DNA of 49,847 nt from Saprospiraceae bacterium (GTDB lineage Bacteria > Bacteroidota > Bacteroidia > Chitinophagales > Saprospiraceae). The translations under genes and the position numbers were made by a program. The stretch's first letter is position 1; each line of letters opens with the position of its first letter. Below the pieces are notes generated by a model. That model was not told where the DNA came from and did no database searches. It worked only from the letters and a program-made list of their open reading frames with translations. The DNA is taken from contig JAHDCK010000001.1 of the NCBI GenBank assembly GCA_020629915.1, positions 1 through 49,847 on the forward strand. Reading direction: 5' to 3'. This document shows positions 27,607-39,600 of this stretch, piece by piece.

Positions 27607-28063
27607 GAAAATGGTGGTTTTGAACACAAATTTGAGTTTGAAAAATCTCCACAAAATAATTGTCCTGTCGATACATTACCAAATGAATTGACAAAAAACG
27701 ACTTTTATCTTAACTTTTATTTTAAAATACTCAACCTAAGGATTATTTCGACTGTTATTTTTTTAACCAACTCATTTTATCAATCAGGAAAACAATATCC
27801 GCATATTTCAATATTTTTTGAAATTTCAAAATTTTGCAAAATTATTGAAAATTAATGCATAATTTTGCGAAATCAACAAGCGCAGAAATAATATTGTACA
27901 AGTTAAGTTCTTTAACTTTTTCTTAACTTATTTAGACGAAATCTAAATAAGGCACAGTTTTGTGGGTTTATTGGTGAAAAGCCGTTTGTATTGTACCTTT
28001 GCGACGTTTATGACGTGGCTTTTACAAACGCATAAATTTCGATAAGTTATAAAGCTGAAAATA
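27607..28063. promoter_or_regulatory. 457-base divergent upstream region of the respiratory operon, rich in dyads
   Basis: No gene is supported here. Five dyads cluster between 27818 and 27950. They are TTGAAATTTCAA (27818-27829), AATTTTGCAAAATT (27830-27843), AAAATTA/TAATTTT (27848-27866), AAGTTAAG/CTTAACTT (around 27900-27928) and TTATTTAGA/TCTAAATAA (27928-27950). The operon promoter follows at 27971-28001. The arrangement suggests control of respiratory gene expression by one or more dyad-binding regulators, though no regulator is identified. Confidence 0.55.
27971..28001 (+). promoter_or_regulatory. Promoter of the act-cox respiratory operon
   Basis: TTG (27971-27973) is followed by 20 bases and TACCTTTG (27994-28001), a full match to the Bacteroidetes -7 element with near-ideal spacing. 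A start near 28008 gives a leader of about 55 bases before actA. Confidence 0.75.
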
Positions 28064-29506
28064 ATGACATATAGGCGATTGATTTACAGCATTTTGTGCT
28101 CAACTATTATCTTCTTCTCCCTTCAAACTACCTTTGCTCAGGGCACTCCTGAGGCCGGAGAAAAATTATTCAAAGCGAACTGTGCTAGCTGCCATGCTAA
28201 GGACATGAAGACGAAATTGACGGGGCCCGCCCTCGCCGGAGTCGTCGGCAGGTGGGAAGATGGCGGTTATCCTATGGAAGACCTCTACGGTTGGATTCGC
28301 AATTCCCAAAAATTGGTTTCCGAAGGACACCCTTACGCCGTTGCACTTTTTAATGAGTACAACAAATCCGTAATGAATGCCTTCCCCAACCTCACCGACC
28401 AAGACATCGAAAGCCTTCTGGCTTATATCGATGGCGTTTCAAACGGGACGTATGGAGTACAACCCGGAACCACCGTTGGAGATCCAGGGATTAATTCTAC
28501 AGAATCAGGAAGTAACTGGTGGGTCTATGCCGGAATTATCGGCTTACTCGCTTTACTTGCTTTTATCCTGAGCAATATTGCCTCCGGCATGTCGAGGGAT
28601 GCTGCCCTTGCCAGAGGAGAAGACTACGAAACGAAGTCCTGGTATGAAATGCTTACCAGCAAATCAACCATCGCCTTCCTTGTTTTCGCAGGTATTATAA
28701 TAGGTGGCTATACTACAGTCAATAATGCCATCGCCTTCAATCGTCAAATTAATTACGGCCCTGAACAACCTATCAATTTCTCTCACGAATTACATGCTGG
28801 AATTAATGGTATCGATTGTCAATACTGCCATGATGGAGCAAGACGCTCTAAGCACGCTGTTATTCCAGCAGTCAATACTTGTATGAATTGCCACACTGCC
28901 GTAAAAGGTAAAAAATACGAAGACTCCGAAAGAGCAGTTCAATCCAAAGTAGAAATTTCTAAAATCTATGCCGCAACCGGTTGGGATCCAATCGGTGGAA
29001 AATACATGGATGATTATAAGAATATGGCTTCTGAAGATATTTCTAAAACCTTTACAAAATGGTTTGAGGATCATTATTTAGAAAGAGCAGAACTTGACCG
29101 GGAGAAAAACAAGAAAAAAGCAGATCGCTTGTTGGAAGAAGTTAAAGGAGATGTGGCCAACCATGTAGAAACGGTGATGGGCTTTGCTCAAAAACCTGTA
29201 GAATGGGTCCGCATACACAACTTGCCAGATCATGCTTATTTCAATCACTCTCAGCACGTTACAGTGGGTGGATTGGAATGTCAGACTTGTCACGGACCCG
29301 TAGAGGAAATGGAGGTAGTTTATCAGCATTCTCCTTTATCAATGGGATGGTGTATTAACTGCCACAGAAAAACGGAAGTTAAATTTGCTGACAATGATTA
29401 CTACGATGCTTACATGAAATTACACGATGATTTAAAATCGGGTAAAATTGATAAAGTGACGGTAGAGGATATTGGCGGATTGGAATGTCAAAAATGCCAC
29501 TATTAG
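28064..29506 (+). CDS. actA: ACIII subunit ActA: multihaem cytochrome c with added N-terminal cytochrome c domain
   Basis: ActA carries electrons from the ACIII core to periplasmic acceptors. This 480-aa protein has a signal peptide (residues 1-26), a class I-type cytochrome c domain (CASCH 40-44, candidate Met ligand near VMNAFPNLTDQD), two membrane helices (about 152-172 and 202-220) and a periplasmic multihaem domain. The latter has five CxxCH motifs: 252-256, 273-277, 406-410, 430-434 and 475-479. The total is six haem sites, one more than the pentahaem ActA described from Rhodothermus marinus. The extra site is the N-terminal domain, which could hand electrons to the oxidase. It is the first gene of the operon, 63 bases downstream of the predicted transcript start. 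A start at ATG 28064 fits the signal peptide. Confidence 0.9.
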   Translation: MTYRRLIYSILCSTIIFFSLQTTFAQGTPEAGEKLFKANCASCHAKDMKTKLTGPALAGVVGRWEDGGYPMEDLYGWIRNSQKLVSEGHPYAVALFNEYNKSVMNAFPNLTDQDIESLLAYIDGVSNGTYGVQPGTTVGDPGINSTESGSNWWVYAGIIGLLALLAFILSNIASGMSRDAALARGEDYETKSWYEMLTSKSTIAFLVFAGIIIGGYTTVNNAIAFNRQINYGPEQPINFSHELHAGINGIDCQYCHDGARRSKHAVIPAVNTCMNCHTAVKGKKYEDSERAVQSKVEISKIYAATGWDPIGGKYMDDYKNMASEDISKTFTKWFEDHYLERAELDREKNKKKADRLLEEVKGDVANHVETVMGFAQKPVEWVRIHNLPDHAYFNHSQHVTVGGLECQTCHGPVEEMEVVYQHSPLSMGWCINCHRKTEVKFADNDYYDAYMKLHDDLKSGKIDKVTVEDIGGLECQKCHY

Positions 29507-29578
29507 AAAAATACCTTTTAGGAGGTTTTTATATATAATTTTATAATAACAATTAGAAACAACTATATCCGGAACCCT

Positions 29579-32500
29579 ATGAAAGATAATCATGAAGTTT
29601 GGATAGGTGCCGAAGATTTAACTCAGGACGAGTCCTATATAAAATCCGGCGAACAAGAATTTTTTGAGCTGCCCATCGCAGAAGCCCTTTCTAAGGAGGA
29701 AGCAGCCATTGAAAAGGCAACGAGCAATGCCAGTCGCCGGGACTTTTTGAAATACGTTGGATTCAGCTTGACAGCTGCGACGGTCGCTTCCGCTTGTGAG
29801 GCCCCGCTCCGTAAAGCCATTCCCTACGTTTCCAAGCCCGACGCTATCGTTCCGGGTGTAGCGACTTACTACGCTTCTACTTTTGTGCAAGGAGGGGATA
29901 TTTGTCCTATTCTTGTTAAAACAAGAGATGGCCGGCCCATCAAAATAGAAGGGAATCCCGGTTCTAAAATGACGCTCGGTGGAACGAGTGCCCGCGCGCA
30001 GGCTAGTGTCCTGAGCTTATACGATACTAATCGTCTGGAAGTTCCGGGGCAAGTAAGTGATGGGAAAGCAAGCGAAATGAACTGGGAGGAATTTGATAAA
30101 GAAATTGCAGGAAAACTGAATGCGGGGTCTAGTATAAGAATCGTTTCTCATACTATCTTAAGTCCTACCTTAAAGAAAGCTATTCAGGATTTTAGAAATA
30201 AATATCCACAAACAAAAGTAGTTCAGTATGATCCGGTATCTGCTTCCGGTTTGTTGGATGCCAACAATAAATCATTTGGATTAAGAGCTGTTCCATCCTA
30301 CAAATTCCAAAATGCGAATGTTATTGTAGGATTTGATTGCGACTTTTTAGGTACTTGGATTTCTCCTATAGAATACGCAGCTCAATATGCTCAAAATAGA
30401 AATCTGGAAAGTATCCAAGCAGGAACGAGAAGCCACCACGTCCAAGTGGAGAGCGGAATGTCCCTGACAGGTTCTAACGCAGATAACAGAATATTAGTAA
30501 AACCTTCTGAGCAGGGGGCAGCAATCTTAGCATTGTATAATGCAGTAGCTGGTGCCACGGGAGGAGCAAGTGCAGGCGGAACGCCTACTTTTTCCAATAA
30601 AAAAGCAGCTAAAGCTTTAGCAAATTTGGGTAAACGTCTGGCTGAAAACAGAGGCCGTTCGTTGGTGGTCTCCGGTTCAAATGACATCAATCAGCAAATA
30701 CTGGTCAATGGAATCAATGCCATGTTAGGAAGTTACGGAGCGACCATTGACTGGAGCCGACCTTCCAACCAAAGACAAGGAAAAGATGCGGATATTCAGG
30801 GTTTGATTAGTGAAATGAGTGGAGTAGATGCGGTCATCGTTATGGGCGGAGCCAATCCGGCTTATGATATTCCCAATGCAGATAAATTTGCAGAGGCCTT
30901 ATCTAAAGTAAAGGTTTCTATTTCTATGAATCCTTCTCTGGATGAAACAGCATCGGTATGTAAATATGTCGCTCCGGATCATCATTACTTAGAATCCTGG
31001 GGAGATGCTGAGGCTAAAGCCGGAGAATACTCCTTGATTCAGCCGACTATTGCACCACTTTTTAAAACCAGAAGTGCAGGAGAATCCCTCCTGATCTGGG
31101 CAGGAAGTGCGTCTTTAGATAAAAATGCCGAGCAGCCTTACTATGAATACCTTAAATCAAACTGGCAAGCTGGAATGTTCGGTGGCCAGTCCAAATATGC
31201 TTCTTTCCGAGGCTTCTGGGATAACGCCCTACACGATGGTTTGCTGACCACTTATGGTGGTGGAGCCGGAGCCGGAGCTTTTTCCGGTGATGTAAGTGGA
31301 GCCGCTTCTGCTATTAAAACAGGAGCTGCAGGAGAAGTAGAAATCAACTTTTATGAAACGGTAAATCTGGGAGACGGACATCATGCCAACAATCCATGGT
31401 TAATGGAAATGCCGGATCCGGTTAATCGTTGTGCCTGGCAAAACTACCTGAGCGTTCCTGTAAAATGGGATGGCGTAAATGATTATAATGGTTTTAACGG
31501 ATTAAAAGACGGAGACCTGGTAACGGTTGCTGTGAATGGAGTAGAATATACCGTCCCTGTAATCCGACAGTTTGGTCAAATGGAAGGAACAGTTTCCTTG
31601 GCTTTGGGTTATGGTAGAACAAGTGCAGGGAAGGTTGGAAACAAAGCAGGTGTAGATGTTTATAAAATGATGAAAGCGACACCTGGCGGTACTCAATATC
31701 ATGGTGTTGCTAGTGTTTCTAATAAAAAAGGAACCGTTGAGAGCTTTGCTTGTATTCAATATCACCATACCTATGGAGTAACTGGACCAGATCAGGAAGA
31801 TGGAGGTAAAACCATCAATGTGGATGAGAAAGTCCTCGGCCACAAAGGGTATCAGGGATCATTGACCGGACGTTCGGTCATGTATACTACAAATATTAAA
31901 GATCTCAAGAAATTTGAGGGCGAACTGAAGCACAAACGCGAACATGCCCAGCATTTAAATAGCAAAACATTATATCCGTTTGATGAATATACTGAGAAGT
32001 TCTATTCTCAGGGGCATCACTGGGGAATGTCTGTGGATATGAATGCTTGTATCGGTTGTGGTGCTTGCCAGGTAGCTTGTATTGCAGAAAACAATGTACC
32101 GGTGGTAGGCGAATTTGAAGTGTCTCGCCACCACGAAATGACCTGGATGCGCATCGACCGCTATTATTATGGAGATGTAGAAAACCCAAATACGGTTTAT
32201 CAACCCATGATGTGTCAGCACTGTGATAACGCACCTTGTGAAAATGTATGCCCGGTATCGGCAACGAACCATAGCTCTGAAGGATTAAATCAAATGACCT
32301 ATAACCGTTGTATCGGAACGCGATATTGTGCAAATAACTGTCCTTACAAGGTTAGAAGATTCAACTGGAAAGATTATATGACAGCGGATTTGTTCCCGGT
32401 AAACGAGGTGGATTTGAATCGTTTCCGTACGGATGAACCAGCTTACTATATGCAGGACAATCTGGAAAGAATGGTCTTGAATCCGGATGTAACGGTTCGC

Positions 32501-32791
32501 TCCCGTGGAGTCATTGAAAAATGTAGTTTCTGCGTACAGCGTATTCAGGAAGGAAAATTGACCGCCAAGAAAGAGGGAAGAAGATTAGGTGATAATGATG
32601 TAAAAACAGCGTGTCAAACAGCTTGTCCAACTGGTGCTATTGTATTTGGTGACCAGAATAATAAAGCATCTCGAATAGCTGAGCGTAATGCCTCCAGTTT
32701 AAATTATTACGTTCTGGAAGAGGTGAATACTCAATCTTCTGTAGGTTATATCGCTAAGGTGAATAGCCGGGATGAAGATTTAGACGCCTAA
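29579..32791 (+). CDS. actB: ACIII subunit ActB: Fe-S and molybdopterin-oxidoreductase-like subunit
   Basis: This 1070-aa periplasmic subunit fuses a molybdopterin oxidoreductase-like domain (residues about 85-720) with a four-cluster ferredoxin-type domain (about 815-1025). Cluster motifs are CIGCGACQVAC, CQHCDNAPCENVCP, CANNCPYK and CSFCVQ with CQTACPTG. The N-terminus carries a twin-arginine motif RRDFLK (53-58) followed by a hydrophobic stretch and Cys73 (SACEAP), so it is probably exported folded by Tat and may be lipidated. The twin-arginine motif sits unusually far in, after about 50 polar residues. In studied ACIII complexes the ActB molybdopterin domain has no cofactor, and the clusters form a wire toward ActA. 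It lies 72 bases after actA. Confidence 0.95.
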   Translation: MKDNHEVWIGAEDLTQDESYIKSGEQEFFELPIAEALSKEEAAIEKATSNASRRDFLKYVGFSLTAATVASACEAPLRKAIPYVSKPDAIVPGVATYYASTFVQGGDICPILVKTRDGRPIKIEGNPGSKMTLGGTSARAQASVLSLYDTNRLEVPGQVSDGKASEMNWEEFDKEIAGKLNAGSSIRIVSHTILSPTLKKAIQDFRNKYPQTKVVQYDPVSASGLLDANNKSFGLRAVPSYKFQNANVIVGFDCDFLGTWISPIEYAAQYAQNRNLESIQAGTRSHHVQVESGMSLTGSNADNRILVKPSEQGAAILALYNAVAGATGGASAGGTPTFSNKKAAKALANLGKRLAENRGRSLVVSGSNDINQQILVNGINAMLGSYGATIDWSRPSNQRQGKDADIQGLISEMSGVDAVIVMGGANPAYDIPNADKFAEALSKVKVSISMNPSLDETASVCKYVAPDHHYLESWGDAEAKAGEYSLIQPTIAPLFKTRSAGESLLIWAGSASLDKNAEQPYYEYLKSNWQAGMFGGQSKYASFRGFWDNALHDGLLTTYGGGAGAGAFSGDVSGAASAIKTGAAGEVEINFYETVNLGDGHHANNPWLMEMPDPVNRCAWQNYLSVPVKWDGVNDYNGFNGLKDGDLVTVAVNGVEYTVPVIRQFGQMEGTVSLALGYGRTSAGKVGNKAGVDVYKMMKATPGGTQYHGVASVSNKKGTVESFACIQYHHTYGVTGPDQEDGGKTINVDEKVLGHKGYQGSLTGRSVMYTTNIKDLKKFEGELKHKREHAQHLNSKTLYPFDEYTEKFYSQGHHWGMSVDMNACIGCGACQVACIAENNVPVVGEFEVSRHHEMTWMRIDRYYYGDVENPNTVYQPMMCQHCDNAPCENVCPVSATNHSSEGLNQMTYNRCIGTRYCANNCPYKVRRFNWKDYMTADLFPVNEVDLNRFRTDEPAYYMQDNLERMVLNPDVTVRSRGVIEKCSFCVQRIQEGKLTAKKEGRRLGDNDVKTACQTACPTGAIVFGDQNNKASRIAERNASSLNYYVLEEVNTQSSVGYIAKVNSRDEDLDA

Positions 32792-32869
32792 TTTTTTTAT
32801 AAAAAAATACTCAATCTAAAGGGTTTTTATTTTAAAATAAGTAAAAATTCTATATAAAAAGATTTTAAT

Positions 32870-34648
32870 ATGAGTGCTGTTGTAGCAAAAGTCCGTAAAC
32901 CACTAATTGAAGGGTACAAAACGTACCACGACATCACGGAGGATATTTGTTCTCCTACGGAAAAAGTGCCTAATATTTGGTGGATCGTTGGAATGGTAGC
33001 CTCCCTGTCCTTACTGGCATTTGGAGGATTCTGTCTGCTTTATACCATTTGGTTTGGTATAGGTACCTGGAATCTGAACCGAACCATCGGCTGGGGTTGG
33101 GATATTACCAACTTTGTTTGGTGGATTGGTATCGGTCACGCCGGAACCCTAATTTCCGCCATCCTCCTCCTCTTCCGTCAGAAATGGCGTACAGGAGTAA
33201 ACCGGGCAGCAGAGGCCATGACGATTTTTGCCGTAATCTGTGCAGCCATGTTTCCCGGAATTCACACAGGCCGTCCCTGGTTTGACTGGTTTATGTTCCC
33301 TTATCCAAATACGCGCGGACCGCTTTGGGTAAACTTCAACTCACCACTTCTTTGGGATCTTTTTGCAATTAGTACTTATTTTACCGTATCTCTTTTATTC
33401 TGGTACACAGGTTTAGTTCCGGATTTAGCGACTCTTAGGGATCGTTCTACTGGAATGAGAAAGAAAATATACAATTTCTTTTCATTTGGCTGGACAGGAG
33501 CCGCCAAACACTGGCAAAGATGGGAATCTCTTTCGTTGATTCTTGCCGGGCTTGCTACACCTCTTGTACTTTCAGTACACACCATCGTATCCTTTGACTT
33601 CGCCACATCGGTAATTCCCGGATGGCATACAACTATCTTCCCTCCTTATTTCGTAGCAGGAGCAATTTTCTCTGGATTCGCCATGGTACTCACACTGATG
33701 TTAATCACCAGAAAAGTATTGAAACTCGAAGAATATATTACACTCGAGCACATCGAGTCTATGAATAAAATTATCCTTCTGACGGGAACTATCGTAGGGG
33801 TGGCTTACCTCACGGAGTTGTTTATCGCCTGGTATTCTGGATATGTTTATGAGCAGTTTGCATTTTATAACAGAGCTTTAGGGCCTTATTGGTGGTCTTA
33901 CTTTGCGATGATGTCCTGCAACGTGTTATCCCCACAGTTTTTCTGGTTCAAAAAAATCAGAAGAAGTATTGTATGGACATTCGTTCTTTCTATCGTCGTA
34001 AATATTGGAATGTGGTTTGAGCGATTTGTAATTATCGCAACTACACTAGCCAGAGATTATCTCCCATCAAGTTGGAGTTACTATTCTCCAACTTGGGTTG
34101 AGGTAGGGGTTTACATATTGACCTTTGGATTATTCATGACTTTATTCCTGATCTTTTGCAGAGTTGCTCCGGTAATTGCTGTGGCTGAGGTAAAGAGTAT
34201 TTTAAAATCCAGTGGAGATCAATATGTTGGGCCGAATGCAAAAGAGCACCACCATGATGATCATCACCAGGACGAAACAATTGCAGCAAAAGTAGATGAT
34301 GTGGCAGAAGATACTACTTACAGTTCTTCATCTGGAGTGAGTGCAGAAACAGATACTCAAACCGAGACAGAAGAAGTTGTCGTAGCTCCGCCTTCTGCCA
34401 AAGACGATTTGAAAAAAGTAGAGGGCATCGGGCCAAAAATTGAAGGCCTTTTGAACGATGCCGGAATTTATACCTGGAGACAATTAGCTAATACTAAAGT
34501 AGAATTCATCAAAGAAGTTTTGGATAAAGCAGGCCCAAGATACCGCATACATGATCCGGGTACCTGGCCAAAGCAAGCAGAAATGGCTGCAGATGGTCTA
34601 TGGGATGAGCTGAAAAAATGGCAGGATGAATTAGACGGAGGTAAATAA
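32870..34648 (+). CDS. actC: ACIII subunit ActC: NrfD-like quinol-oxidising membrane subunit with C-terminal HhH domain
   Basis: The core (residues about 1-445) is a polysulfide-reductase NrfD-type integral membrane protein with around ten helices. It forms the quinol site and part of the proton path of ACIII. After it come a His/Asp-rich stretch (KEHHHDDHHQDE, about 462-473), a Thr/Glu-rich linker and a C-terminal domain (about 510-592). This domain contains the helix-hairpin-helix motif VEGIGPKIEGLLNDAGI and the segment RIHDPGTWPKQAEMAADG. That HhH module is known to me as an appendage on other Bacteroidetes proteins, including some ribosomal L21 proteins, but is unexpected on a membrane oxidoreductase. 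The protein is 592 aa, so about 120 residues are appended. It lies 78 bases after actB. Confidence 0.93.
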   Translation: MSAVVAKVRKPLIEGYKTYHDITEDICSPTEKVPNIWWIVGMVASLSLLAFGGFCLLYTIWFGIGTWNLNRTIGWGWDITNFVWWIGIGHAGTLISAILLLFRQKWRTGVNRAAEAMTIFAVICAAMFPGIHTGRPWFDWFMFPYPNTRGPLWVNFNSPLLWDLFAISTYFTVSLLFWYTGLVPDLATLRDRSTGMRKKIYNFFSFGWTGAAKHWQRWESLSLILAGLATPLVLSVHTIVSFDFATSVIPGWHTTIFPPYFVAGAIFSGFAMVLTLMLITRKVLKLEEYITLEHIESMNKIILLTGTIVGVAYLTELFIAWYSGYVYEQFAFYNRALGPYWWSYFAMMSCNVLSPQFFWFKKIRRSIVWTFVLSIVVNIGMWFERFVIIATTLARDYLPSSWSYYSPTWVEVGVYILTFGLFMTLFLIFCRVAPVIAVAEVKSILKSSGDQYVGPNAKEHHHDDHHQDETIAAKVDDVAEDTTYSSSSGVSAETDTQTETEEVVVAPPSAKDDLKKVEGIGPKIEGLLNDAGIYTWRQLANTKVEFIKEVLDKAGPRYRIHDPGTWPKQAEMAADGLWDELKKWQDELDGGK

Positions 34649-34662
34649 TCCTAGAATTAGGA

Positions 34663-34680
34663 ATTTTATTATAATAAAAT
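34663..34680. repeat. Perfect 18-bp A/T palindrome between actC and actD
   Basis: ATTTTATTATAATAAAAT reads the same on both strands and fills most of the 46-base gap between two operon genes. A second dyad, TCCTA/TAGGA, lies just before it (34649-34662). It is one of several such palindromes at gene junctions in this operon. Confidence 0.6.
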
Positions 34681-34694
34681 AATAAACCAGTAAA

Positions 34695-35219
34695 ATGGCA
34701 AAAGACATCATTTTTGGATTGTACAATGACGAGGAACACCTCATGGCCGCAGTGGACAAGGCAAATGAGGCAGGACTTGACATTTGGAATGTGTACACCC
34801 CCTTCCCGGTTCACGGTTTAGATCCCAAGTTGGGGTTGTCGGAATCCCGGTTGCACATTGCCGGATTTGTTTTCGGTATGATGGGAACGCTGACAGCATT
34901 CCTGGGGATGACCTGGATTTTTACAAGAGACTGGCCTATCATCTTTGGGGGAAAACCCTATTGGTCTGTTCCTGCATTTATACCGATTACTTTTGAGTTG
35001 ACGGTACTATTTGCATCCATTGGAATGGTAGTGGTATTTTACACCGTTTGCGGTCTTGGCCCTGGTGTAACGAATCCCGTTTTAGATGATCGAATTACAG
35101 ATGATAAATTTTGTCTGGCATTCGATGCTAACGGATTGTCTGATTCCGAACTGGATAAATACCGAGATTTCCTGAACGGGACTCGACACATAGCTGAAGT
35201 ACATTTGAAATCGATTTAA
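34695..35219 (+). CDS. actD: ACIII subunit ActD (DUF3341 family)
   Basis: This 174-aa DUF3341 membrane subunit stabilises the ACIII core. An N-terminal soluble part contains the family start (GLYNDEEHLMAAVDKANEAG, a ferredoxin-like fold). Two membrane helices follow (about 54-75, FVFGMMGTLTAFLGMTWIF; about 95-120), then a short C-terminal domain with the DDRITDDKFCLAFD segment. Its length is normal for the family. It sits between actC and actE with gaps of 46 and 28 bases, consistent with a single transcript. Confidence 0.95.
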   Translation: MAKDIIFGLYNDEEHLMAAVDKANEAGLDIWNVYTPFPVHGLDPKLGLSESRLHIAGFVFGMMGTLTAFLGMTWIFTRDWPIIFGGKPYWSVPAFIPITFELTVLFASIGMVVVFYTVCGLGPGVTNPVLDDRITDDKFCLAFDANGLSDSELDKYRDFLNGTRHIAEVHLKSI

Positions 35220-35247: not shown

Positions 35248-36423
35248 ATGAAAAAATTCACTCAACACACTTTATTGGCTGCGGTACTTGGTTTGTTCCT
35301 TCTTTCAGGATGTGGACAACCTGGCGGAGAATTTCCGGGGTATGAATTTATGCCGGATATGGCCCACGGTACCGCCTACGAAGCCAATTACTACGATTAT
35401 TATTTTTATAATACTTTTGGTAGCGAAGAGGAATATCGCAAATATGCGGGACCTCGTCTTCCAGTCACAGGTACCATGCCTCGCGGTTATGCCGGTGTAG
35501 TAAATGCCAAAAATCCAGAGGACAAAGCAAAAGCGATGTCTTTACTAGATGGAACCATTACACCCAATGCACTAAAGATTCCTGTGAATGGAAGTGTTCC
35601 ATTCTACTATGGGAACTCTGATGCAGAGCGCGAAAGAGCAGCAGCGGAGATTGTTGCCAATCCATACCCGATCACGGAAAAAGGATTGAAAACAGGAAAA
35701 GAATTATATGATATAAACTGTGGTATTTGTCACGGTAAAAAAGGTGAGGGGAATGGCTCAATCTACGAAAGTGGAGCTTACCCTGCTGCACCAGCTAATT
35801 TCCTGCAGGAAGATATCAAAGCTAAAACAAATGGAAGTTATTACCATACGATCATGCACGGAAAAGGTGTGATGGGAGGTTATTCCGATAAACTCTCCTA
35901 TGAAGAAAGATGGCAGGTGATTCATTATATCCGTTCAATGCAGGCCAAAGCAGACAAGCGTGAATACAAAGCTGTTTCTGCGGTAGAGCGTTTACAAAAT
36001 GATCTGGCTGGTGTAAATCTTGAGAATGATGAATTTTTAAATCAAATCCGAACAGTTGTTGGAAGAAGAGCAGGAGTAGGTCAGACTCTGGCCCTTAAAA
36101 ATGTTTTCTTTGAAACAGGGCGTTCAGATTTGAGAGTGGATTCTCAAAGAGAGTTGAATAAACTGGCTTTTGCTCTGGCCGAAAACAAGGATTTAACAAT
36201 CGAAGTAGCAGGGCATACAGATAATGTCGGTCACCCAAATGACAATCTGACTTTATCTAAAAACCGGGCAAGAACCGTTAGAAATTACCTCGTAGGAAAA
36301 GGTATCAGCAGCAATCGTCTTCGCGCAAAAGGATATGGCGAAGCTAAGCCCGTTGCTCCAAATGAGACAGATGCGGGTCGTGCACAAAACAGAAGAACAG
36401 AATTTACCATTTTAGGTCAATAA
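35248..36423 (+). CDS. actE: ACIII subunit ActE: monohaem cytochrome c lipoprotein fused to an OmpA-type peptidoglycan-binding domain
   Basis: The N-terminus is a lipoprotein signal (LLSGC, Cys22). A class I cytochrome c domain has CGICH at 158-162 and a candidate distal Met in KGVMGGYS. This is the expected monohaem ActE, normally around 200 aa. The protein continues to 391 aa with a complete OmpA C-terminal domain (residues about 280-391): VFFETGRSDL, GHTDNVG, NLTLSKNRARTVRNYL, RAKGYGEAKPV and QNRRTEF. These include the Asp and Arg positions used by OmpA domains to grip the diaminopimelate peptide of peptidoglycan. The fusion would tie ACIII to the cell wall. It lies 28 bases after actD and 20 bases before actF. 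Confidence 0.93.
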   Translation: MKKFTQHTLLAAVLGLFLLSGCGQPGGEFPGYEFMPDMAHGTAYEANYYDYYFYNTFGSEEEYRKYAGPRLPVTGTMPRGYAGVVNAKNPEDKAKAMSLLDGTITPNALKIPVNGSVPFYYGNSDAERERAAAEIVANPYPITEKGLKTGKELYDINCGICHGKKGEGNGSIYESGAYPAAPANFLQEDIKAKTNGSYYHTIMHGKGVMGGYSDKLSYEERWQVIHYIRSMQAKADKREYKAVSAVERLQNDLAGVNLENDEFLNQIRTVVGRRAGVGQTLALKNVFFETGRSDLRVDSQRELNKLAFALAENKDLTIEVAGHTDNVGHPNDNLTLSKNRARTVRNYLVGKGISSNRLRAKGYGEAKPVAPNETDAGRAQNRRTEFTILGQ

Positions 36424-36443: not shown

Positions 36444-38069
36444 ATGAATAATAATTTCACTTTTACAGGAAGCCAAAGAACATTAACCTTCGCATTAATG
36501 GCGATTGGATTATTGGCCTTATTGTTTGGAGTGTTTACTTCTCCTGAAGGGACACATCAGGCCAGAGTTTGGTCTAATATTTTACATAACACGGCATTCT
36601 TTATGGGAATTGCTTTCATTTCTACATTTCTGATTGCCTGTAAAATTTCAGCTTACTCCGGTTGGCATACCAACTTCAAGCGCATTCTGGAAGCATTCAG
36701 TATGTTCCTTCCGATAGGGTTGCTTTTGGTGCTAATTATAGTTGCAGGATTGTGGACAGGTTCTCATCACCTGTATCACTGGGCTGCAGATGGAATTACT
36801 GATCCAAATTCTGCTAATTACGATTCAATCATAGACGGAAAATCTAAGTTATTAAACCCAATAATGTACACTGTAGGGACTTTAGGAATTATTGGTCTGT
36901 GGACTTTCTTTGCTTTTAAATTCCGAAGCCTTTCAGTTTCTGAAGATAAGGATGATCATGGTGTTGGAAAACACGAAGGTTCCTCCTATTGGAGAAGCAG
37001 TAAAGTTTGGGCAGCTATCTTTTTGCCCGTTGGTGGATTCCTGAGTCCTTTTGTTATCCTTTGGTTGATTATGTCCATTGATTCCCACTGGTACAGTACC
37101 ATGTTTTTCTGGTACACATCAGCTAGTTGGTTGGTGACTGCGGTTGCATTTACTATTTTATTTATAATATACTTAAAATCACTAGGTCATTTGCAGCAAG
37201 TATCTGATGAACACTTACATGACCTTGGAAAATATTTATTTGGGTTTAGTGTGTTTTGGACGTACTTATGGTTCTCTCAATTCATGTTGATTTGGTATGC
37301 GAATGTGGGAGAGGAGACCATTTATTTCCATACCAGAACCCGACAGTTTCCGGTTTTATTTTACGGAAACTTAATTATGAATTTTGCCTTACCTTTCTTA
37401 ATTCTGGTCGCGAATTCTACCAAAAGAATGTACGGTATAATGACCTTCATGGCAGTACTCTTGATTTTTGGTCACTGGATAGATTTTTTCCAGATGATTA
37501 AACCAGGTGTATATGAAGGGTTACATCATCATTCTCATGATCATGGAGACGGACATGGAAGCATTATTGATTTGGATGGAAAACCAGTCAACGTTTCTAA
37601 GTATCAAAAAGATGGTGAACCTGTTTTAGTCCAAAATGATCATGGACATGATCACAAGGATGGAAAAACACACAACCACGATCACGATCACGGCGATGGA
37701 AAGGCTCATAACCACGACCATGGAGACGGGCATCACCATGCAGGAGATGGACATGACCATGAAGGAAAAGATGCACACGGTCACGATCATGGTGCGCACG
37801 ATGCACATGGAAAAGATAAAGGTCACGATCATGGACACGGTGAGCATGCAGCTCATGGACATGATGATGGTCATCATGGTGGTGGTCATGGAGATCACGG
37901 TGCAGGAGGATTTGAAATGGGATACCATTTGCCAGGATTTATTGAGATAGGAATGTTTCTCGGATTTTTAGGTCTGTTCCTTTATGTTGTATTTACAGCA
38001 TTAAGCAGAGCCTCATTAATTCCTGTAAATGATACCTATCATGATGAAAGTACCCATCATCACGTATAG
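36444..38069 (+). CDS. actF: ACIII subunit ActF: NrfD-like membrane subunit with a 36-histidine insertion
   Basis: This is the second NrfD-type membrane subunit of ACIII, about ten helices, paralogous to ActC. At 541 aa it is longer than the usual 400-450. The excess is a hydrophilic insertion before the last membrane helix (residues about 361-490) made of short His-Asp-Gly words such as HDHGDGHHHAGDGHDHEG, with 36 histidines by my count. The tail ends in STHHHV. Such stretches bind copper, zinc or nickel in other proteins; a role in metal supply to the oxidase encoded next is inference. The last helix (EIGMFLGFLGLFLYVVFTAL) is intact, so the subunit is probably functional. Confidence 0.92.
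   Translation: MNNNFTFTGSQRTLTFALMAIGLLALLFGVFTSPEGTHQARVWSNILHNTAFFMGIAFISTFLIACKISAYSGWHTNFKRILEAFSMFLPIGLLLVLIIVAGLWTGSHHLYHWAADGITDPNSANYDSIIDGKSKLLNPIMYTVGTLGIIGLWTFFAFKFRSLSVSEDKDDHGVGKHEGSSYWRSSKVWAAIFLPVGGFLSPFVILWLIMSIDSHWYSTMFFWYTSASWLVTAVAFTILFIIYLKSLGHLQQVSDEHLHDLGKYLFGFSVFWTYLWFSQFMLIWYANVGEETIYFHTRTRQFPVLFYGNLIMNFALPFLILVANSTKRMYGIMTFMAVLLIFGHWIDFFQMIKPGVYEGLHHHSHDHGDGHGSIIDLDGKPVNVSKYQKDGEPVLVQNDHGHDHKDGKTHNHDHDHGDGKAHNHDHGDGHHHAGDGHDHEGKDAHGHDHGAHDAHGKDKGHDHGHGEHAAHGHDDGHHGGGHGDHGAGGFEMGYHLPGFIEIGMFLGFLGLFLYVVFTALSRASLIPVNDTYHDESTHHHV
37525..37910 (+). repeat. Low-complexity His/Asp/Gly-coding repeat inside actF
   Basis: Imperfect CAT/CAC-GAT/GAC-GGx words run for about 385 bases (GATCATGGACATGATCAC and similar), encoding the His-rich insertion of ActF. 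Slippage between copies could change its length without a frameshift, because the words are in-frame multiples of three. Confidence 0.85.
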
Positions 38070-38130: not shown

Positions 38131-39600
38131 ATGACACTGTTTATAATATTATTAATTGCGATTCTAATCTACATTATCTTCATCCAAATTGGACGGGTGA
38201 CGGATTTAGCGAGAAATATTCGCGGAGAGGAGCGCACACAAACTGCGGCAAATAATGCCAATGGATTTGGAATGTTGATATTTATGCCTCTCTTTTTGGG
38301 AGCATGTGTTTGGTCGGCATTATACTATAAGGATTCTATGTTGGGTTATGGGCCCCACAGCGCAGCCTCTGTTCACGGTGGTGTGTTGGATTCTATTTTT
38401 GATGTCACTTTGTTTTTTACCGGAATAGTTTTCATCGTTACGCATATTGCGTTATTCTGGTTTGCCTGGAAATATAGAGGTAAAGTGGGGCAAAAAGCGA
38501 AGTTCTTTGCACACAGTAGTCAGTTGGAGTTAATTTGGACAGTTATTCCTGCAATCGTTATGACTTTCCTTGTAATAAAAGGATTGGATGCCTGGAATGA
38601 GGCTACTGCTGATGTAGGACCAACAGAAGTTCCCGGAAAAGATTATATCGAAATCGAAGCGATGGGCTACCAGTTTGCCTGGCAATTGCGTTATCCAGGA
38701 GCAGATCACAAACTGGGATCAAGGAATTATCAGTTGATCGATTTAGCAAATAATCCTATCGGACAGGATTGGAATGACCCTAAAAACTACGATGATTTTC
38801 AACCAGATAAAATTGTACTTCCTGTCGGTAAAAAAGTGCGGGTGAGAATTTTAGCACGAGATGTGTTACACAACTTTTATTTACCTCACTTTCGGGTAAA
38901 AATGGATGCTGTTCCAGGAATGCCTACTTATTTTGTTTTTACACCAACGGTAACCACGAAAGAATACAGAAACAGATTAAAAAATTATCCTGAGTATCAG
39001 GAACCAGCAGATCCGGCTAATCCGGAAGGGCCAAGACGCTGGGAAACATTTGAATATGAATTGGCCTGCGCAGAGCTTTGTGGAAAGGGACACTACAGTA
39101 TGAGAAGAATTGTAGAAATTGTTTCTGAAGAAGAATATGAAGAGTGGTTGGCAGAGCAAAAATCCTACTTCGCTCAAAACATTATGGGAACAGATGCTGA
39201 TCCTAATAAAGAAGCTAATTTGAAGAAAATGGAAGCTGAAAAAGCTGCAGAAGAAGCCCGCAAAGCAAGAGAAGCGGCTCAAAAAGCAGCGGCAGCAGGA
39301 GCAACTACTTCTGTCGGAGGAATGGGAACAACCGGAACAACAACGGTTACAACCGGAGCTGCCGGAGGAACAGTGACAACCATTGGAACTCAAGTAGGCG
39401 GAGCTACCTCAGGTGGTGGAACGACCGTTGAAATTCCCGAAGGCATGACGGAGGAGGAAGCCAAAAAGAAAGGCTTGTTAAAGCGCATAATTGAAAAAGG
39501 AAAAGATAAGGTTGAAGATATAAAAGAAAACAGAGCAGACAGGAAGGCTAGAAAAGCTGCTGAAAAAGCAGCTAAAGAAGCAGAAAACAATAATAATTAA
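38131..39600 (+). CDS. coxB: Cytochrome c oxidase subunit II with long charged C-terminal tail
   Basis: Subunit II carries the CuA centre that takes electrons from cytochrome c. Four N-terminal membrane helices are predicted (about 1-20, 48-66, 90-113, 132-150), two more than the classical hairpin. The CuA ligands are complete: His247 (VLHNFYLPH), then Cys313, Cys317, His321 and Met324 in CAELCGKGHYSM. No cytochrome c domain is fused, so this is aa3-like rather than caa3. After the CuA domain (about residue 345) a roughly 130-residue tail follows: an Ala/Glu/Lys coiled-coil stretch, a Thr/Gly-rich stretch (about 390-430) and a highly charged end (EGMTEEEAKKKGLLKRI, DRKARKAAEKAAKEAE). The tail is on the periplasmic side and unusual. 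Confidence 0.95.
   Translation: MTLFIILLIAILIYIIFIQIGRVTDLARNIRGEERTQTAANNANGFGMLIFMPLFLGACVWSALYYKDSMLGYGPHSAASVHGGVLDSIFDVTLFFTGIVFIVTHIALFWFAWKYRGKVGQKAKFFAHSSQLELIWTVIPAIVMTFLVIKGLDAWNEATADVGPTEVPGKDYIEIEAMGYQFAWQLRYPGADHKLGSRNYQLIDLANNPIGQDWNDPKNYDDFQPDKIVLPVGKKVRVRILARDVLHNFYLPHFRVKMDAVPGMPTYFVFTPTVTTKEYRNRLKNYPEYQEPADPANPEGPRRWETFEYELACAELCGKGHYSMRRIVEIVSEEEYEEWLAEQKSYFAQNIMGTDADPNKEANLKKMEAEKAAEEARKAREAAQKAAAAGATTSVGGMGTTGTTTVTTGAAGGTVTTIGTQVGGATSGGGTTVEIPEGMTEEEAKKKGLLKRIIEKGKDKVEDIKENRADRKARKAAEKAAKEAENNNN

Follow-up and report, generated by a model that had tools for sequence, protein, structure and literature searches.

An OmpA-type domain at the end of the cytochrome subunit ActE in Saprospiraceae, a probable wall tether of a respiratory supercomplex that relatives carry on CoxB

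In a member of the Saprospiraceae, ActE, the monohaem cytochrome subunit of alternative complex III (ACIII), continues into a complete OmpA-type C-terminal domain. At Saprospiraceae loci where ActE is without this domain, it often ends CoxB, the oxidase subunit II encoded two genes downstream. We think it probable that the domain tethers the ACIII-oxidase supercomplex to peptidoglycan, from a place on either ActE or CoxB. The DNA analysed, here called the window, is a stretch of 49,847 nucleotides. Its genes run in the order actA-B-C-D-E-F-coxB-coxA, with further oxidase genes after these, an operon-like arrangement. The features are as follows.

28064..35219, + strand: actA, actB, actC and actD, the rest of the ACIII cluster upstream, with no OmpA domain (ORFs, profile search)
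35248..36423, + strand: actE, lipoprotein monohaem cytochrome c plus OmpA-like domain, 391 aa (ORF, profile search)
35299..35313, + strand: lipobox LLSGC of ActE, residues 18-22 (alignment of 15 fusions, all with Cys22)
35680..35952, + strand: cytochrome c domain, about residues 145-235 (profile, alignment, fold match to 6lod_E)
35953..36084, + strand: linker, about residues 236-279, with predicted helices 245-252 and 262-272 (structure model)
36085..36420, + strand: OmpA C-terminal domain of peptidoglycan-binding type, residues 280-391, with Asp325 and Arg340 (Pfam, fold)
36444..38069, + strand: actF, between actE and coxB, with a His/Asp-rich loop (ORF)
38131..39600, + strand: coxB, oxidase subunit II, no OmpA domain (ORFs, profile search)

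The actE frame is single and continuous, encoding 391 residues with zero internal stops; the segment 36085-36423 corresponds to residues 280-391 plus the stop codon. In Pfam, OmpA (PF00691) matches residues 287-382 (E 3e-23; score 82.4 bits, curated cut-off 27.2), and cytochrome c families match residues 148-231. The motifs GHTDNVG and LSKNRARTV start at residues 322 and 336. Thus the open reading frame, the Pfam match and the motif positions confirm the preliminary description, according to which ActE runs into a complete OmpA C-terminal domain with these two motifs. About 42 residues separate the cytochrome from the OmpA domain; in other fusions the linker is mostly 29-76 residues. The halves on either side of the junction have the same GC content, 0.43, and similar GC3 values, 0.35 and 0.31. 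The same architecture is found with open frames in independent metagenome-assembled Saprospiraceae contigs (L009-L012), which encode the whole fusion and whose best segments are 46-48% identical to it. Since the fusion recurs in independent contigs with continuous frames, and since base composition is even, it is no accident of frame or assembly.

The cytochrome half is that of a normal ActE. The haem motif, CGICH at residues 158-162, is the only c-type motif, and M209 is the candidate axial methionine; across 15 aligned ActE fusions no variation is seen at Cys22, at the cysteines and histidine of the haem motif, or at M209. The position of actE in act clusters is established knowledge; the window gene lies between actD and actF, and relatives keep this order. 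The model of residues 113-235 superposes on 6lod_E with Z 14.2 and rmsd 3.2 over 114 aligned residues (VIA-align), and 6btm_E matches the cytochrome part at E 1.5e-14. The AF2 block means of residues 21-140 are 30-63, and this segment supports no conclusion here. To summarize, the protein is the normal monohaem lipoprotein subunit of ACIII plus a C-terminal OmpA-type domain, its haem ligation and its membership in ACIII being predicted from the sequence.

With the ActE chains of Flavobacterium johnsoniae (6btm), Rhodothermus marinus (6f0k) and Roseiflexus castenholzii (6lod), the window protein shares gene position, lipobox, single CXXCH motif and cytochrome fold. It differs from them in length, 391 residues against 162-209, and in the OmpA domain, which none of the three possesses; the solved F. 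johnsoniae chain, 6btm_E, is thus without it. For a laboratory strain of F. johnsoniae, an actE deletion with a complementation system exists (PMC8552683). In the four solved ActE chains listed (chain E of 6btm, 6f0k, 6lod and 8k9e; 162-209 aa) the cytochrome part alone is matched, 8k9e_E being labelled merely a cytochrome c domain protein and read here as ACIII subunit E. The earlier statement that ActE normally has about 200 residues therefore holds for the solved chains but not throughout the Saprospiraceae, where unfused ActE is often extended by a non-OmpA, frequently His-rich tail. Long ActE frames in this family were considered as candidate OmpA fusions and rejected where the tails proved His- or Lys-rich instead. 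Lys-rich, amphipathic-looking tails were seen on the window CoxB, whose low-complexity end is also Thr/Gly-rich and has no OmpA domain, and on the ActE of L091 (from the genome that also has L134), L094, L098, L112 and L115. In three genomes (G107, G078 and G223, with L091, L094 and L098), ActE has the Lys-rich tail and its partner CoxB the OmpA domain. The Lys-rich tail is possibly a second tail type swapped between ActE and CoxB.

Over residues 281-390, AF2 models the C-terminal part with block means of 90-96; its solved relatives are OmpA-family domains. It matches 5wtp (Foldseek TM by target 0.87; VIA-align Z 17.9) and 3td5 (0.82; Z 14.6), the latter an OmpA with bound peptidoglycan peptide. 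In the aligned motifs, Asp325 and Arg340 occupy the positions of OmpA's two peptidoglycan-binding residues. They stand 15 apart, and so do the DAP-binding residues D271 and R286 in OmpA from Acinetobacter (PMC6572160). Both residues are present in 15 of 15 ActE fusions in an alignment that includes no sequence of families f74 or f85. Across the operons described below, the strict pattern GHTD-x(10-16)-LSxxRA fits 68 of 78 OmpA domains, one of the 78 (L240) being an OmpA protein of its own that is not encoded in the operon. Of the remaining 10, eight still have the Asp and the Arg, by eye, and the exceptions are two of f74. These two (L331 and L332) have a degenerate motif, GHVSSD or GHVASD, in which the Asp motif is lost; coxB was not found in the stretches fetched for them. 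The preliminary description had named loss of the Asp/Arg geometry as evidence against a wall-binding domain; by sequence and fold alignment, both residues are in place. Fold, Asp and Arg, kept across most fused relatives, argue for the predicted cell-wall-binding character.

The fusion is not a peculiarity of one ActE. CoxB-OmpA occurs in 73 of 112 Saprospiraceae genomes, one per genus (52 of 80 plus 21 of 32), counted as a match in one place reaching at least position 494 of a 498-residue CoxB-OmpA query; two genomes (G043 and G087) in which the match is broken over frames or contigs are excluded from the 73. In all, 135 operons were annotated: those of the window and of named loci, and those of genomes selected deliberately for non-fused CoxB, for long ActE frames, or as controls, sister families and class outliers. 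The operons were chosen on purpose, so the counts are not a prevalence sample. In 120 operons both genes are readable: 34 have the domain on ActE only, 36 on CoxB only, 50 on neither, and none on both. The operons with neither comprise 22 in Saprospiraceae and 28 outside, the latter including seven outgroups and four of f30. Another 15 operons are incomplete: five with an ActE fusion and CoxB unseen, two with a CoxB fusion and ActE unseen, and eight whose readable part is without the domain. Labels were set manually for L284, L285 and L309. In one operon (L197), the CoxB tail looks by eye like an eroded OmpA domain, with GHTD and LSxxRA lost. Since 50 of the 120 readable operons are without an OmpA domain, 22 of them in Saprospiraceae, the tether is dispensable.

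ActE itself is matched in 271 of 298 sampled Saprospiraceae genomes (family f1), and further ActE fusions in this family are those of L108, L119, L122-L124, L127, L131, L132, L205, L219, L220, L223 and L224. Altogether, ActE fusions occur in six families of the class: f1, f2, f12, f22, f74 and f85. Family f12 has 12 ActE-fusion operons, two in which the domain lies in a separate overlapping frame, and two with neither fusion; f2 has two ActE-fusion operons; f22 has one ActE fusion and two operons with neither. In the two exceptional f12 operons (L284 and L285), the overlapping ORF with the OmpA domain follows directly on actE, reflecting a split gene or a frame error. Families f85 and f74 supplied the further ActE fusions among the best matches listed for 395 genomes of the class; the f85 fusion has a DxDxDG-type repeat ahead of its OmpA domain, and the f85 CoxB, read directly, is without such a domain. 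CoxB fusion is found in a second family, f19, in one operon (L305). Within the same order, 13 operons of 12 families read to both genes have neither fusion (f3, f4, f5, f8, f9, f10, f13, f14, f16, f18, f20, the last represented twice, and f21), the set being confined to such operons and thus without f6, f7, f11, f15 and f17. Elsewhere in the class, no CoxB fusion appears in the 53 of 80 genomes that match CoxB at E 1e-60 or better, all of these matches stopping at or before model position 384 of 499. The remaining 27 genomes are uninformative. Long ActE frames in f30 (G609, G859, G877 and G893) were set aside, as the frame is open upstream of the gene and no OmpA domain is present. Given ActE fusions in six families and CoxB as carrier in 73 of 112 sampled Saprospiraceae genera, it is too narrow a view to see here a single odd ActE. 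According to the preliminary description, its reading would be refuted if the architecture were common in known ActE proteins; the four solved chains are without the domain, whereas the fusion does recur in six families.

A careful IQ-TREE analysis of 116 concatenated operons separates f1, a clade of f2 and f12, f19, and f22. Within f1, the same tree has the ActE fusions branching first and most CoxB fusions forming one clade. FastTree with distant outgroups also has the ActE fusions branching first, FastTree with sister families places the CoxB fusions first, and a quick IQ-TREE leaves the base of f1 open. As the trees disagree, no direction of change within f1 is claimed. A single clade is rejected neither for the f1 ActE fusions (AU p 0.685, quick tree) nor for the f1 CoxB fusions (AU p 0.141, careful tree); therefore, one handover within f1 suffices. 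Multiple switches were considered, because the fixed trees require many changes, but were dropped since the AU tests do not reject one clade.

The OmpA-domain tree (163 rows, 110 columns) is too poorly resolved to give the origin of the CoxB domain, and it offers no showing that the CoxB domain derives from that of ActE. In this tree, the f19 CoxB domain (L305) joins a different OmpA paralogue with support 99, and some ActE domains of f1 and f12 cluster with support 84. The former, together with the linker type peculiar to f85, speaks for separate gains; the latter suggests that the f1 and f12 ActE domains may share one origin. Whether the two placements exclude each other was asked in several ways. 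Pagel's dependent model fits better than independence (whole tree, LR 15.4, p 0.004; f1 alone, LR 13.4, p 0.009), in a test easily swayed by few events. An independent-pairs sign test of ActE/CoxB exclusivity is not significant. Simulated independent change leaves no tip bearing both domains in 6% of 2000 runs, and among the simulations with frequencies like those observed, this outcome is seen in 0 of 79. Only a small number of independent events underlies the exclusivity.

How would such a domain act? The OmpA-type domain of ActE would hold the meso-DAP peptide of peptidoglycan and would anchor the respiratory supercomplex of the inner membrane to the wall; the proposed benefit would be reduced mobility or a fixed membrane-to-wall spacing. 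Because the Asp and Arg are conserved, the simplest function that uses them is peptidoglycan binding. As ActE is a predicted part of ACIII, and ACIII pairs with the aa3/caa3 oxidase whose genes follow directly downstream, it would be the supercomplex that is tethered. The tether reading gains weight from the presence of the same kind of domain on CoxB, in the same assembly, in relatives. It follows from the placement on CoxB, beside ActE, that what is kept would be a supercomplex tether and not its particular bearer. The window shares its gene neighbourhood with the ACIII-aa3/caa3 supercomplexes, and in R. marinus ActE sits on top of ActA with oxidase subunit II adjoining ActE in a 20 Å map (PMC5928083); the F. 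johnsoniae supercomplex has a different architecture according to the same paper. If the R. marinus arrangement is valid here, a domain on either neighbour would keep its place in the assembly. Thus, of the earlier proposal of a wall-tethered respiratory complex, the fusion stands, the wall-binding character of the domain appears well founded, and tethering is the best reading; positioning near sites of envelope stress, also proposed there, finds no support in this analysis. Fusion, fold, aligned binding residues, recurrence and alternative placement are observed, whereas peptidoglycan binding, assembly into a single supercomplex and the benefit are inferred. A tentative generalization, to which we give slightly less than even credence, is that in several Bacteroidota families one OmpA-type domain anchors the ACIII-oxidase supercomplex to peptidoglycan, this anchor having been gained several times separately, being interchangeable between the facing subunits ActE and CoxB, and being selected at the level of the assembly instead of its bearer.

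Other explanations of the fusion can be weighed against a wall tether. OmpA domains are abundant (25 other places in the window genome match the query through this domain) and might occasionally fuse to any exported protein and be tolerated, with no role in the complex. Such neutral accretion would agree with the 50 readable operons without the domain, the degenerate f74 copies and the eroded-looking L197 tail. We nevertheless consider it unlikely, as the binding residues are retained in most domains across divergent families, two subunits of a single assembly have apparently gained the domain separately, and no OmpA domain was met on ActA, ActB, ActC, ActD, ActF or CoxA in the annotated operons. 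Slightly less probable again is a protein-protein dock or spacer that does not bind peptidoglycan, for example one that links ActE to CoxB or recruits a soluble carrier. In its favour, the ActE of R. marinus has oxidase subunit II as redox neighbour, each of the two bears the domain in different lineages, and unassigned periplasmic density lies above ActE in the R. marinus ACIII (PMC5928083). A pure dock, however, would have no need of the conserved peptidoglycan-site Asp and Arg.

It is also conceivable, but very improbable, that the fused ActE is an outer-membrane lipoprotein linking that membrane to the wall independently of ACIII. ActE does have a lipobox, and lipoproteins of the outer membrane are common among proteins of OmpA/Pal type. 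The gene nevertheless sits in the actE position inside the act operon, the cytochrome half retains ActE residues and fold, and other lineages bear the domain on CoxB, which is an inner-membrane oxidase subunit. Moreover, the N-terminus of R. marinus ActE reaches the membrane within ACIII (PMC5928083). To an assembly or frame artefact we assign a negligible probability: the separate overlapping frames of L284 and L285 indicate that frame errors may occur in such genomes, but the fusion recurs with uninterrupted frames in many independent contigs, which refutes the artefact.

The wall-tether reading brings together elements known separately. Carriers of PF00691 include porins, lipoproteins, motor stators and secretion parts. 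With the domains of OmpA, Pal, MotB and TssL, the window ActE shares the fold and the Asp/Arg binding residues; those carriers are of other kinds, whereas here the carrier is an electron-transfer subunit. Another bioenergetic membrane complex provides the nearest parallel: the photosystem I subunit PsaB in 7f4v_aB (872 aa) has an OmpA-type domain at chain residues 753-864, in a photosystem as opposed to a respiratory complex. A peptidoglycan-binding-like extension of PsaB has reportedly been described before. We infer that 7f4v_aB is Gloeobacter violaceus PsaB and that 7f4v belongs to PMC9000952, in which PsaB is modelled over residues 3-727 only; the word "peptidoglycan" is absent from that paper's main text as available. 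ActE and OmpA domains separately, and an OmpA-type end on the photosynthetic subunit PsaB, are thus already known. In the ActE and ACIII literature searched, largely by title and opening of the abstract, no such fusion with OmpA was met, the OmpA passages of the one paper that combines these subjects concerning the ompA promoter, and the sections read describe no wall tether on the ACIII-aa3/caa3 supercomplex; searches on Saprospiraceae together with alternative complex III found nothing related. As far as these searches go, what is new is the fusion of the domain to ActE and to CoxB, together with its placement on one or the other, most subscription journals lying outside the literature searched.

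Respiratory complexes are usually pictured as free to drift within the membrane. An anchor to the wall that is part of the complex, if true, would fix the site of oxygen respiration and the distance from complex to wall. Placement on ActE or CoxB would be indirect genomic evidence that both work as one physical unit here, and with the fusion one can test cleanly whether the mobility of the supercomplex is important.

Further peculiarities were seen in the neighbouring window genes. ActA (28064-29506) has an extra N-terminal CXXCH, making six in total, as in the six-haem ActA of F. johnsoniae. ActC (32870-34648) ends in an extension that by eye consists of a His-rich stretch and then a helix-hairpin-helix-like segment, with below-cut-off NCBIfam matches to extensions of NuoE, S2 and L21 entries. 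The His/Asp-rich loop of ActF, at about 37500-37950, is long and possibly metal-binding. Upstream of actA, at 27971-28001, TTG, a 20-base spacer and TACCTTTG resemble the Bacteroidota promoter consensus.
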